64,000 nt of DNA from Roseococcus pinisoli (GTDB lineage: Bacteria > Pseudomonadota > Alphaproteobacteria > Acetobacterales > Acetobacteraceae). Both the position numbers and the translations under genes were made by a program. Position 1 is the first letter of the stretch. Each line of letters starts with the position of its first letter. The notes beneath the pieces are model-generated. The model did not search any database. It saw nothing but the letters and a program-made list of their open reading frames with translations, and was not told the DNA's origin. Location: positions 1,302,001-1,366,000 of the forward strand of contig NZ_JAHCDA010000001.1 of the NCBI RefSeq assembly GCF_018413645.1. Reading direction: 5' to 3'. Shown here in pieces: positions 55,179 through 58,941 of this stretch.

Positions 55179-56540
55179 CTAGTCGGGCCCCTGATAGCCT
55201 TCCGTCGCCAGCCGGCCCGGCAGCTCCAGCCGGGCCGCAAGGCCGCCGAGCCGCCCGCTGCGATCGAGCGACAGCGTCCCGTCGTAGAGCGAGGCGAGGT
55301 CGCCCACGATCGCGAGGCCCAGCCCCGAACCCGACTTGGCTTCGTCGAGCCGCACCCCGCGCAGCAGGGCGGCGCCGTCCTCGCCATCGGCAAGGCCCGG
55401 CCCGTCGTCCTCGACCAGGATCACGACGTGCTGGGGATCCCGCATGGAGACCCGCACCGCGACCCGGCCGTTGCCGTATTTGGAAGCGTTCTCCATCAGG
55501 TTGCCGAGCATCTCGGTGAGATCCTGGCTGTCCGCGCGCACCCGGGCTTCGGATTCGCCGCTGACGCGGATCTCGACGCCGCGCGCGGCGGTGAGGCGGC
55601 GCAGTGCCGTTCCCAGCGCCTCGGCAATGGCCAGCGGCGCGCTTTCCGCCCCGGCCGAGCCGGCCAGCGCGCCGGCCCGGGCACGGCGCAGATGGTGCTG
55701 CACCAGGCGCTCCAGCGTGGTGGACTGGCTGCGCGCCACGGCCACGTCGCCGGTCTCCAGCGCGTTGCGCAGCACGGCGATCGGCGTCTTCAGCGCATGG
55801 GCGAGGTTGCCCACATGGTTGCGCGCGCGCTCGACCGTCGCGCGGTTCTGCTCGATCAGCGCCTCGATCTCCCTCACCAGCGGGGCGATCTCGCGCGGCG
55901 CGGCCACGTCGATATGCAGGCGGCGGCCCTGGCGGACCTCGGCCAATTCCTGCTGCGTGCGGCGCAGCGGCCGCAGCCCCCAGACCACCAGCAGCGCCAC
56001 GACGACGACGAGGCCGGTTCCCAGTAGCGCGAAGGCCAGGATCACGTTGCCGCGCAGCTCGGCGATCTCGTCATCGGTGCTCTGGCGCGCGAAGGCCACC
56101 TGCACCGCGATGGGCACGCGGCCGAAGCGGCTGTCGATCTGCACGTCGCGTTCCAGGACGCGCAGCTCCTCGCCTCGCGGGCCCTGCATGTTGCGCGCCC
56201 GCACGCCCTCCGCCGCCGTGGGCAGGGGCGGGCCCAGCCGCGAATCCCAGAGCGAGCGCGAGGTCGCCTGCACGCCGCCGGGGCCGGTGAGCTGCCAGTA
56301 ATGGCCGGAGAGCGGCCGCTCGAATTCGGGATCGGCGAGGGGCCGCGTCAGGATCGGGCCGGAGGAGGGCTCGAAGCTGGTGGAGGCCACCACGGCATCC
56401 AGGAGGCTGGCCAGCCGGGCATCCGCGGTGGACTGGATCTGCTGCTCGTCCGTCCGCACGACGAACCAGGCGATCATTCCGAGGCCGAGGGAAACCCAGA
56501 GCGTGGTGAGGATCACCAGCCGTCGGGTGACCGAGTTCAT
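55179..56540 (-). CDS. Sensor histidine kinase
   Basis: A membrane histidine kinase of 453 residues. It has N-terminal membrane helices near residues 7-28 and 165-190 flanking a periplasmic domain, then a HAMP-like linker. The H-box His is in NLAHALKTPIAVLRNALE. The ATP lid has LGNLMENASKYG (N box) and VEDDGPGLADGEDG (G box), then GSGLGLAIVGDLASLYDG. The layout matches the QseC/PmrB group. Its start overlaps the response regulator stop by 4 bases. Confidence 0.9.
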   Translation of the reverse strand: MNSVTRRLVILTTLWVSLGLGMIAWFVVRTDEQQIQSTADARLASLLDAVVASTSFEPSSGPILTRPLADPEFERPLSGHYWQLTGPGGVQATSRSLWDSRLGPPLPTAAEGVRARNMQGPRGEELRVLERDVQIDSRFGRVPIAVQVAFARQSTDDEIAELRGNVILAFALLGTGLVVVVALLVVWGLRPLRRTQQELAEVRQGRRLHIDVAAPREIAPLVREIEALIEQNRATVERARNHVGNLAHALKTPIAVLRNALETGDVAVARSQSTTLERLVQHHLRRARAGALAGSAGAESAPLAIAEALGTALRRLTAARGVEIRVSGESEARVRADSQDLTEMLGNLMENASKYGNGRVAVRVSMRDPQHVVILVEDDGPGLADGEDGAALLRGVRLDEAKSGSGLGLAIVGDLASLYDGTLSLDRSGRLGGLAARLELPGRLATEGYQGPD

Positions 56541-57196
56541 CCGGGCAGCAGCCGGTAGCCCTGGCCCCGCACGGTCTCGATCAGCCCGTCGCCGAGCTTG
56601 CGCCGCAGCCGCGCCACGATGACCTCGAGCGTGTTCGAATCGCGGTCGAAATCCTGCGCGTAGAGATGCTCGGTCAGCTCGGTCTTGGAGACCGGGCGGC
56701 CGGCATGCAGGGCAAGGTAGGAGAAGAGGCCGTATTCCAGCGCCGTCAGCCGGATGGCCTGGCCCGCGCGCGAGACGGAGCGCGTCGCGGTGTCGAGCCG
56801 CACCTCGCCGAAGACGAGCTCGGGCTTGGCGACGCCGTTGGCGCGGCGGATCAGCGCGTTGAGGCGGGCGACCAGCTCGCCCATGGCGAAGGGCTTGGCG
56901 AGGTAGTCGTCGGCGCCGGCATTCAGCCCCTCGACCTTCTCGCTCCAGGAATCGCGGGCGGTGAGGATGAGCACCGGCATGGCGCGCTCGGCCGCGCGCC
57001 AGCGGCGCAGCACGGTGAGGCCATCGACCCGGGGGAGGCCGAGGTCGAGCACCACGGCGTCATAGGGTTCGGTCTCGCCCAGATACAGGGCTTCCTCGCC
57101 ATCCATGGCGCCGTCGACGGCGAAGCCCGCCTCGGTCAGGCCGGTACGGAGCTGCTGATGGAGCTCGGGGGTATCCTCGACGATAAGCAGACGCAT
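56537..57196 (-). CDS. OmpR-family response regulator
   Basis: A 219-residue response regulator. The receiver has the acidic pair in LLIVEDTPELHQQL, the phosphoryl Asp in VVLDLGLPRVDGL and Lys in YLAKPFAMGEL. A winged-helix OmpR output domain follows (RDSNTLEVIVARLRRKLGDG, then TVRGQGYRLLPG). It resembles QseB/PmrA regulators, which bind two direct half-sites 11 bases apart. Exactly such repeats lie at 57641-57820 upstream of the PepSY gene. The ATG at 57196 is used. Confidence 0.9.
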   Translation of the reverse strand: MRLLIVEDTPELHQQLRTGLTEAGFAVDGAMDGEEALYLGETEPYDAVVLDLGLPRVDGLTVLRRWRAAERAMPVLILTARDSWSEKVEGLNAGADDYLAKPFAMGELVARLNALIRRANGVAKPELVFGEVRLDTATRSVSRAGQAIRLTALEYGLFSYLALHAGRPVSKTELTEHLYAQDFDRDSNTLEVIVARLRRKLGDGLIETVRGQGYRLLPG

Positions 57197-57259
57197 GGGG
57201 GGATCATGCACGCAATGCCCCCGCTTGGTCCATCGGCCGCGTGCGGGGCAGGGCGCCTA

Positions 57260-57616
57260 TCAGCGGGAGCTGGACGACCTGGAGGAGGGGGCGCTGCCCG
57301 AGGTGCGTTCCTGCACCGGCCCGCGCGAGCGGAGCAGGCCGCCCGTCGTCGCATCCAGCTCGACCGTGAAGATCCGGCCGTTGGGCGGCAGGATCTTGAT
57401 CTCGTACTGCCACTGGCCGTCCTCGAGCTCGAGCTCGGCCTCGATCACGCGGCCGTGATAGCGGCGCTCGACCTCGGAGAGGAGCTCGGAGAGGGGGCGG
57501 ATCTGACCGGCCTCGAGTGCCGCGCGGGCCCGCTCATGGTCGCGCCGGTCCTGCGCCACGGCCGGGGCGGTGAGCAGGAGAAGAACAGCCAGCGAAGAGA
57601 GGAGGCGACGGCTCAT
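57260..57616 (-). CDS. PepSY domain-containing exported protein
   Basis: A 118-residue protein. The signal peptide MSRRLLSSLAVLLLLTAPAV ends before AQD. A PepSY domain follows: LSELLSEVERRYHGRVIEAELELEDGQWQYEIKI (in parts) and FTVELDATTGGLLRSRG. PepSY proteins are often encoded with two-component systems and may modulate sensor activity or protease function. The Ser-rich tail is unusual. It is the first gene of the leftward PepSY-regulator-kinase unit. Confidence 0.82.
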   Translation of the reverse strand: MSRRLLSSLAVLLLLTAPAVAQDRRDHERARAALEAGQIRPLSELLSEVERRYHGRVIEAELELEDGQWQYEIKILPPNGRIFTVELDATTGGLLRSRGPVQERTSGSAPSSRSSSSR

Positions 57617-57640
57617 GCAGGCTTTGATTGGTCCCGGGGG

Positions 57641-57658
57641 GCTGAACAAGGGCTGAAT
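57641..57658 (+). promoter_or_regulatory. Response-regulator direct repeat, copy 1
   Basis: GCTGAAC-AAGG-GCTGAAT has two half-sites 11 bases apart. It lies 25-42 bases upstream of the PepSY start. Confidence 0.6.
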
Positions 57659-57779
57659 CCGGCGCCCGGACCGCCTTCTCGGAGCGAGCGCCTCCAGAGG
57701 GATAGCGGCTCAGGAGGCGACGTCAACTTTCGATGGGGCAGAAGCATGGATTTCCGGTGGCGCCAATTCTGCCTAGGGG

Positions 57780-57797
57780 GCTGAACCAATGCTGAAT
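57780..57797 (+). promoter_or_regulatory. Response-regulator direct repeat, copy 2
   Basis: GCTGAAC-CAAT-GCTGAAT has half-sites identical to copy 1 and the same 11-base period. Confidence 0.6.
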
Positions 57798-57802
57798 CAT
57801 AG

Positions 57803-57820
57803 GCTCAGGCCTTGTTCAGG
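57803..57820 (-). promoter_or_regulatory. Response-regulator direct repeat, copy 3 (opposite strand)
   Basis: On the minus strand CCTGAAC-AAGG-CCTGAGC repeats the pattern with 14 of 18 bases shared with copy 1, including the AAGG spacer. Confidence 0.55.
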
Positions 57821-57919
57821 AAGCACCCCTTAAAACAGGCATCAGGATGAAGCTTCGGATGCGGTTCGAGGCTCGGGTCACCGGGTCGGCGCACCGTCCG
57901 AGACAAGGAGCATGGGGAC

Positions 57920-58168
57920 ATGTTGTTCAATCTTCAGCAGATCGCACCGTCCCTGCTCAGCCTGTTCATGGTGGGGCTGGCCTTCGTGCCGCTCTTTTTC
58001 GTCTGGCAGGACCGTAGCCGCCGGCTGAGCGACAGCCGCCGGGTCTCGAAGCTCCAGCACGAGGCGCGTGTGGCCGAGCGGCTGCGCATGCGCAGCCTGG
58101 AGACCAAGGCGCCGGGCCTGGCCGGCATCGGGGCGGTGTCGCCCCGGCAGAAGAACGTGATCGGCTGA
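57920..58168 (+). CDS. Small single-span membrane protein
   Basis: An 82-residue protein with one N-terminal membrane helix (LLSLFMVGLAFVPLFFVW) and a strongly basic, helical cytoplasmic tail rich in Arg and Glu. No family is recognised. It is divergent from the PepSY-two-component unit and shares the repeat-bearing promoter region, so it is probably a target of that regulator. It is followed by a strong terminator. Confidence 0.6.
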   Translation: MLFNLQQIAPSLLSLFMVGLAFVPLFFVWQDRSRRLSDSRRVSKLQHEARVAERLRMRSLETKAPGLAGIGAVSPRQKNVIG

Positions 58169-58201
58169 GGGGCAAGTGGCTCCTTCGGGAGCCCCCAAAC
58201 A

Positions 58202-58233
58202 AAAACGCCGGCTGCGGGAGCAGCCGGCGTTTT
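58202..58233. terminator. Terminator between the small membrane gene and the RutE-like gene
   Basis: AAAACGCCGGCTGC-GGGA-GCAGCCGGCGTTTT is a perfect 14-base-pair stem with A and T ends, so it works both ways. A UUCG hairpin (GGCTCC-TTCG-GGAGCC, 58178-58193) precedes it. Confidence 0.9.
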
Positions 58234-58238
58234 GCGTT

Positions 58239-58829
58239 TCAGACGATCTTCGCGACCTCGTCGAACTCGAAGCGCGGGTTCCGCGGGAAGATGCCCGCCG
58301 GGTCGCCATGCCCGAGGTTGATCAGGAAGTTCGTCTTGAAGCCGCTATCGGCGAAGAACAGGTCGTCGACCTTGGAATTGTCGAAGCCGCTCATCGGGCC
58401 GGCATCCAGGCCCAGCGCGCGGGCGGCGAGGATCAGGTAGGCGCCCTGCAGCGTGCCGTTGCGGAAGGCCGTGGCATCGGCCAGCGACCAGTTGCCCGCG
58501 AACCAGCTCTTGGCGTCGGCCTGCGGGAAGAGCTTCGGCAGGTGGTCGTAGAACTTCGGGTCATGCCCGACGATGACGGTGACGGGCGCCGTCATCGTCT
58601 TCTCGGTGTTGCCGGCCGAAAGGGCCTGCTTCAGCTTGGCCTTCGCCTCGGGCGAGCGCACGAAGACGAAGCGCGCGGGCGAGGCATTGGCGCTGGTCGG
58701 GCCCCACTTCAGCAGGTCGTAGAGCTCGTGCAGCTCCTCGTCGGTGACGGGGGCGTCCGTCCACTTGTTCTGCGTCCGGGCATTGCGGAACAGCGTGTCG
58801 AGGGCGGCGGCGTCGAGCTTGTCGGACAT
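58239..58829 (-). CDS. Nitroreductase-family malonic semialdehyde reductase (RutE-like)
   Basis: An FMN-dependent reductase of 196 residues, the same length as Rut[25 protein letters not shown] is the FMN-binding block, followed by [40 protein letters not shown] (in parts). RutE/HadB-type enzymes reduce malonic semialdehyde or related substrates. No other pyrimidine-degradation (rut) genes are nearby, so the substrate is open. Confidence 0.85.
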
Positions 58830-58941
58830 CGGGAGGCTCCGGGGAGGTGTTGATTACCCGGACTATGGCGGCGCCGGAGCAACCCCGCCATACCGCGTCG
58901 CACCATGAGTATCATTCATGGTGCGAATGATGGTGGGGGGC

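Follow-up and report, generated by a model that had tools for sequence, protein, structure and literature searches.

The stretch of Roseococcus pinisoli DNA analysed here (64,000 nucleotides; hereafter the window) carries on its minus strand an operon in the order PepSY protein, response regulator (RR) and histidine kinase (HK). The first gene (57260-57616) encodes a PepSY protein of 118 aa, which scores 37.8 bits to PF03413 against a cut-off of 24 and whose N-terminus looks, by eye, like a signal peptide. It is followed by an OmpR-family RR of 219 aa (56537-57196; PF00072 and PF00486), for which a start at the ATG at 57196 or at a GTG five codons upstream (57211) would fit, and whose nearest solved structures are those of BasR/PmrA. 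The sensor HK of 453 aa (55179-56540; PF02518) is encoded by a gene that overlaps the RR gene by 4 bp, and a periplasmic loop is probable because hydropathy places hydrophobic segments near residues 7-27 and 166-193. Gene order and spacing fit a single operon of a small secreted-protein gene, the RR and the HK. The original prediction had recognized a two-component operon beside a divergent promoter, as found here, but had overlooked the PepSY gene that adjoins the repeats on the operon side; because that gene encodes a PepSY protein, it suggests the likely regulatory logic of the locus.

A 303-bp intergenic region separates the PepSY gene from a divergent gene (57920-58168, plus strand) for an 82-aa protein, M82, which has one hydrophobic segment (residues about 11-29) followed by a basic tail and matched no Pfam or NCBIfam family. 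The next gene, on the minus strand, encodes a reductase (NCBIfam malonic semialdehyde reductase, 315 bits against a cut-off of 152). The M82 and reductase genes are convergent, and the gap between them holds a GC-rich inverted repeat (58201-58233), recognized by eye, with an A-run on one side and a T-run on the other; it resembles a bidirectional terminator.

Boxes in the divergent intergenic region

The intergenic region contains three copies of a repeat whose half-sites have a period of 11 bp, as predicted, with the third copy inverted and degenerate. The PepSY-proximal box, S1 (57641-57658), reads ATTCAGC-CCTT-GTTCAGC on the minus strand towards the PepSY gene, with an exact TTCAG-N6-TTCAG, and GCTGAAC-AAGG-GCTGAAT on the plus strand. 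The distal PepSY-facing box, S2 (57780-57797), reads GCTGAAC-CAAT-GCTGAAT on the plus strand, so that the predicted pair of copies with identical half-sites (GCTGAAC-N4-GCTGAAT) is exact; read towards the operon on the minus strand, both boxes contain an exact TTCA-N7-TTCA. The third box, S3 (57803-57820), faces the M82 gene on the plus strand as GCTCAG-GCCTT-GTTCAGG (CCTGAAC-AAGG-CCTGAGC on the minus strand) and has one degenerate half-site, with three mismatches to GCTGAAY-N4-GCTGAAY and one to CTGAA-N6-CTGAA. S2 and S3 are the two halves of a 39-bp everted operator of four half-sites (57781-57819), in which the starts of the TGAR/TTCA cores of the two boxes lie 22 bp apart. The AAGG spacer that S1 and S3 have in common had been put forward as a meaningful feature of the inverted copy; this part did not stand, because spacer letters vary freely among relatives, and the match in AAGG is attributed to chance.

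The window holds two exact matches to CTGAA-N6-CTGAA where 0.03 would be expected, and none of 100 shuffles reached two. For the full pattern GCTGAAY-N4-GCTGAAY with up to three mismatches, the window holds 13 matches against 14.5 expected, and the degenerate S3 is therefore unremarkable alone; it gains support because its fixed distance from S2 recurs in relatives. No RNA element was found at Rfam gathering scores in 57000-58900.

Conservation of the paired box and other sites in the genome

The PepSY protein was matched in 22 of 60 genomes, including the genome of the window, and in 16 of 21 within the genus. Seventeen loci were testable: 16 from 15 genus genomes, one of which (G001) has two tandem copies, and one from another genus of the same family (G031). 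One locus at a contig end (L022), with 37 bp of upstream sequence, was left out of the genus counts, and the 17 do not include L027-L031, which are distant PepSY loci, or L033-L039, which are paralogue loci. An exact CTGAA-N6-CTGAA box faces the PepSY gene in all 17 loci, and the 39-bp operator, written as CTGA[AG]-N6-CTGA-N8-TTCAG-N6-TTCAG, is present in 15. Conservation upstream of orthologues, on which the original prediction had made its own survival depend, was thus found. Allowing up to three mismatches, the 39-bp pair was matched in 21 of the 60 genomes, and its reversed control in none of the 60. With tblastn, M82 matched in 14 of the 17 loci (E <= 0.01 to any of three M82-type queries). 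The two loci that are without the second box (L020 and L023) also gave no M82 match in the stretch examined, and G031 keeps the second box, gave no M82 match and has a divergent gene that is PepSY-like (home-made profile, E = 1.2e-8). Among the more distant loci, L033 carries a pair with one mismatch per box, L028, L029 and L031 each carry a single box with one mismatch, and for six PepSY paralogues of genus genomes that are more distant (L034-L039), the 450 bp upstream contain no box even when one mismatch is allowed. In several relatives (L015, L018, L019, L021 and L024), a short CAACC/GGTTG-like inverted repeat was seen by eye just past the putative M82 start; it is not evident in the window.

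The additional box S1 can be placed by comparison with two of these relatives. G001 has two tandem M82-operator-PepSY units, and G008 has two operators, the second with an M82-side box that is 1 bp short. The spacer between S1 and S2 (57659-57779) aligns with the region around the second operator of G001, the second M82-side box having decayed, and from the alignments with G008 and G001 this spacer is a probable remnant of a tandem duplication. On this single set of alignments, the additional box S1 is probably what duplication and deletion left behind and not part of a special three-site design.

The position of the boxes relative to possible promoter elements bears on the sign of regulation. 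On the PepSY side, a weak -10-like CAATCA (57625-57630, minus strand) lies 12-17 nt behind S1, with the PepSY ATG 8 nt further. The element is a poor one, CAA-like letters are partly kept at the same distance in relatives, and, because the ATG follows so closely, the transcript may have almost no leader ahead of the PepSY coding sequence. S1 sits 25-42 bp before this ATG, a place in which a protein on the DNA could obstruct RNA polymerase, as it would if the boxes repressed both the PepSY operon and M82 in an autorepressive arrangement. Such repression appears unlikely, however, in view of the M82 side, where a -10-like TAAAAC (57831-57836, plus strand) lies 12-17 nt behind S3, and where 13 of the 15 copies of the operator have a -10-like TA fixed at positions 12-13 after the M82-side box, with the A at position 13 in all 15. 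Activators that bind in the place of the -35 element have this geometry, and the spacing is as expected if the box replaces that element.

A genome-wide search for the repeat, which had been suggested as a check, returned nine exact matches to CTGAA-N6-CTGAA against one for the reversed pattern, and seven of the nine fall in three intergenic regions. Exact boxes stand ahead of azlC (C1:206.9k) and ahead of an RND gene at C1:520.2k (Pfam ACR_tran; of the heavy-metal type by eye). Two everted pairs with 1-2 mismatches are also present, one between two divergent PepSY genes (C5:818266) and one between a PepSY-like gene and a possible 44-aa single-TM protein (C1:272568); the PepSY-like gene at the latter site scores 20.5 bits, below the Pfam cut-off of 24. 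The proposal of a self-contained module is not supported: with two further PepSY units that carry a paired box, and with exact boxes at the azlC and RND regions, the system is probably not self-contained. Single boxes have to be read with care, as several inspected sites lie inside genes among the 67 exact matches in 13 genus genomes (10 for the reversed pattern), and three genus genomes in which no PepSY gene was found still have 2, 2 and 5 of these matches; a single box is not specific on its own.

Several further sites were observed in the neighborhoods of these boxes. Between azlC and a gene pair of NAD-epimerase-like and MipA-family types (L040:4854-4931; G000:C1:206854-206930), there is an array of four consecutive half-sites at 11-bp phase, ATGAAT/CTGAAT/CTGAAC/CTGAAT, plus another pair. 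Boxes also occur ahead of an RND efflux gene of the heavy-metal type, as judged by eye, in L041 (4700-4754), L237 and L257, and in G010 and G020 azlC adjoins this RND gene with a box at the junction. In L121 (G039), two genes whose products look secreted diverge from an everted-type pair with two mismatches; by eye, one of them may be curlin-like, and this gene pair is a possible further class of targets. A lipoprotein-like gene in G006, G009 and G015 was ruled out as a target since the match includes its start codon (ATG-CTG-AAC).

The TTCA-N7-TTCA motif across the class and in known systems

Relatives of the RR at E <= 1e-62 were found in 47 of 192 class genomes, including that of the window, and the best 30 RR loci were studied as a class sample. 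A second sample came from a scan of named genomes and comprises at least 80 loci; Sinorhizobium meliloti is absent from the loci listed. With one truncated locus (L195) dropped from the class counts, 109 usable loci are among those listed, and in 81 of these the 1.2 kb upstream of the RR contain, on its strand, a PepSY-like ORF (E < 0.01 with a home-made profile). In 61 of these 81 listed loci, the window included, TTCA-N7-TTCA occurs in the 350 bp before the PepSY domain, and the exact motif is absent from the scanned 350 bp in the other 20; the count is strict, as the box of L130 falls outside the scanned 350 bp. Among the loci listed, the motif was present in 22 of 29 of the class sample. 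Of the named loci, it was present in 31 of the 38 treated as alphaproteobacterial, in 6 of the 11 treated as gammaproteobacterial and in 2 of the remaining 3. Examples include loci of the Hyphomicrobiales with a PepSY-like ORF and the motif, such as Bosea (L155), and a Vibrio variabilis relative (L198) with both. Other spacers from 1 to 15 gave 0-3 of the 81 listed loci, the opposite strand with spacer 7 gave 7, first-order resampling gave a mean of 0.4 and a largest value of 3, and a coding control taken from the RR gene (its first 350 bp) gave none of the 81. Where the listed loci have no upstream PepSY ORF, the motif occurs within 700 bp of the RR in 4 of 28. In 11 of the 81 listed loci (the window plus 10 more), the first box is accompanied by a divergent one at a distance of exactly 22 bp; in two, the distance is 23 bp.

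These counts weigh on whether the repeats have a regulatory function at all. In one genome of another family (G042; L104-L117), 14 matches to the everted operator were found with up to three mismatches (0 in the control), many of them not near a called gene, and they may represent either an extensive regulon or a repeat scattered through the genome. Chance, or a REP/MITE-like element without regulatory function, is nevertheless a very improbable explanation of the boxes in the window: the concentration of own-genome matches in three intergenic regions speaks against it, as do, among the loci listed, the exact N7 spacing before PepSY genes with its strand bias and empty coding control, and the finding that the 61 motif-bearing upstream stretches all differ in sequence.

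A second question is which regulator the boxes serve. They could belong to another OmpR-family regulator, the adjacent RR being merely nearby: an initial search of the genome gave 62 candidate places for relatives of the RR, and the 10-kb stretches around the azlC and RND boxes contain no relative of the RR or HK of the window by tblastn. We consider this quite unlikely given that the box is tied to the PepSY-RR operon in so many of the listed loci, across many families and in one orientation; because of this linkage, a private operator of the linked RR is the simplest reason for the pattern. In an RR tree, used for orientation only because of its many long branches and with one row shorter than 190 aa dropped, the protein of the window groups with Roseomonadaceae (Roseicella, Siccirubricoccus and Dankookia), and the combination of PepSY gene and motif is widely spread. 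The RR of a MAG labelled Bordetella sp. (L187) falls inside a Caulobacteraceae clade in this tree, and that genome is probably mislabelled or a mixed bin.

The prediction of a PmrA/QseB-like regulator stands in so far as an OmpR-family regulator of that broad branch is adjacent and the spacing fits, as PmrA and QseB bind half-sites in tandem, spaced by roughly one turn of the helix. Identity with either was ruled out, as the RR scores 217 bits against an NCBIfam cut-off of 330 for PmrA (BasR) and 204 against 345 for QseB, and the motif is that proposed for FeuP. The PmrA/QseB box is presumably of the type CTTAAG/TTAA, compared with TTCAG in the window. Likewise, the BqsR motif, which we take to be TTAAG-N6-TTAAG, has the spacing of the window box and a different sequence.

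The likeness to FeuN-FeuP-FeuQ rests on motif and gene arrangement: this system is also alphaproteobacterial, its gene for a small periplasmic protein is predicted to be cotranscribed with the RR and HK genes, and the motif, identical in sequence and spacing, is also found upstream of the small-protein gene. We assume that feuN is the first gene of its operon and that FeuP is of the OmpR type. According to the available text on S. meliloti, TTCA-N7-TTCA is the proposed FeuP site; 12 genes have it upstream, of which five depend on FeuP, and feuN is one of the further genes bearing it (PMC3616915). This was the only paper with the motif in the open-licence literature searched. A cyclic-glucan exporter as target is a feature of S. 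meliloti, whereas the divergent membrane-protein gene and the everted operator are features of the window that the text available for FeuNPQ does not mention.

PepSY proteins beside two-component systems are also found in DbfQ-DbfR-DbfS of Vibrio cholerae and in PA2658/PA2659-BqsRS of Pseudomonas aeruginosa, although these systems are gammaproteobacterial and have other outputs. In the available text on the former, binding of DbfQ shifts DbfS towards phosphatase activity, and neighborhoods that combine PepSY proteins with two-component systems (PepSY-TCS) are widespread, at more than 60-fold over chance (PMC12714742). The definition used there, as far as that text gives it, is a small PepSY gene within four genes of an HK or RR, and in the window the PepSY gene adjoins the RR and exceeds the PF03413 cut-off. 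In the same text, damping of the kinase in the periplasm is shown for DbfQ; for the window it is proposed by likeness. Both models also argue against repression, as the text consulted for each describes FeuP as an activator of motif-bearing genes in S. meliloti (PMC3616915) and reports what its authors regard as signs of positive autoregulation for dbfQRS (PMC12714742). UzcRS of Caulobacter resembles the present system as an alphaproteobacterial two-component system that activates many secreted or membrane proteins. Its motif was rejected as the nearest one, as it is given in the available text as CATTAC-N6-TTAA (PMC8963506) and differs from TTCA-N7-TTCA. The locus of the window joins the PepSY-TCS arrangement to the candidate FeuP motif.

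Proposed regulation and wider meaning

Judged from the sequence evidence, the repeats are likely the operator boxes of the RR encoded at 56537-57196, which would activate its own PepSY-RR-HK operon and M82 while the PepSY protein dampens the HK. The phosphorylated RR is predicted to form a head-to-tail dimer on the two tandem half-sites of TTCA-N7-TTCA, where it would occupy the place of a -35 element, and in that position it may activate its own operon, in positive autoregulation, together with the divergent single-TM protein. The 39-bp everted operator, the common unit of the lineage, would serve both promoters, and tandem duplication followed by decay may have left this strain with its extra PepSY-side box near the PepSY start. 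Through binding to the periplasmic loop of the HK, the secreted PepSY protein probably pushes the kinase towards phosphatase activity, which would provide a delayed negative feedback of the kind reported for FeuN and DbfQ. The proposal that the divergent membrane protein is a likely output of the system gains from the finding that its gene faces its own conserved box, S3, and M82 may act as an output or as a second modulator.

A self-adjusting PepSY-TCS switch is already known, and the locus of the window represents a new case. Tentatively, and with more doubt than confidence, FeuNPQ, DbfQRS and the window locus could be regarded as branches of one Proteobacteria-wide PepSY-gated switch that was ancestrally autoregulated through a conserved TTCA-N7-TTCA operator. 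A divergent second PepSY-like gene, as seen in G031 and three other inspected genomes, would then have been replaced in the Roseomonadaceae lineage of the window, under the same operator, by the new single-TM protein M82 as a second, membrane-side modulator of the HK. The candidate FeuP motif, which lies upstream of 12 genes in S. meliloti, is extended here to the PepSY operons of numerous Alphaproteobacteria and of some Gammaproteobacteria. A candidate operator and a list of targets are also ready for testing in PepSY-associated two-component systems, a widespread class for which FeuNPQ and DbfQRS are the experimental models.
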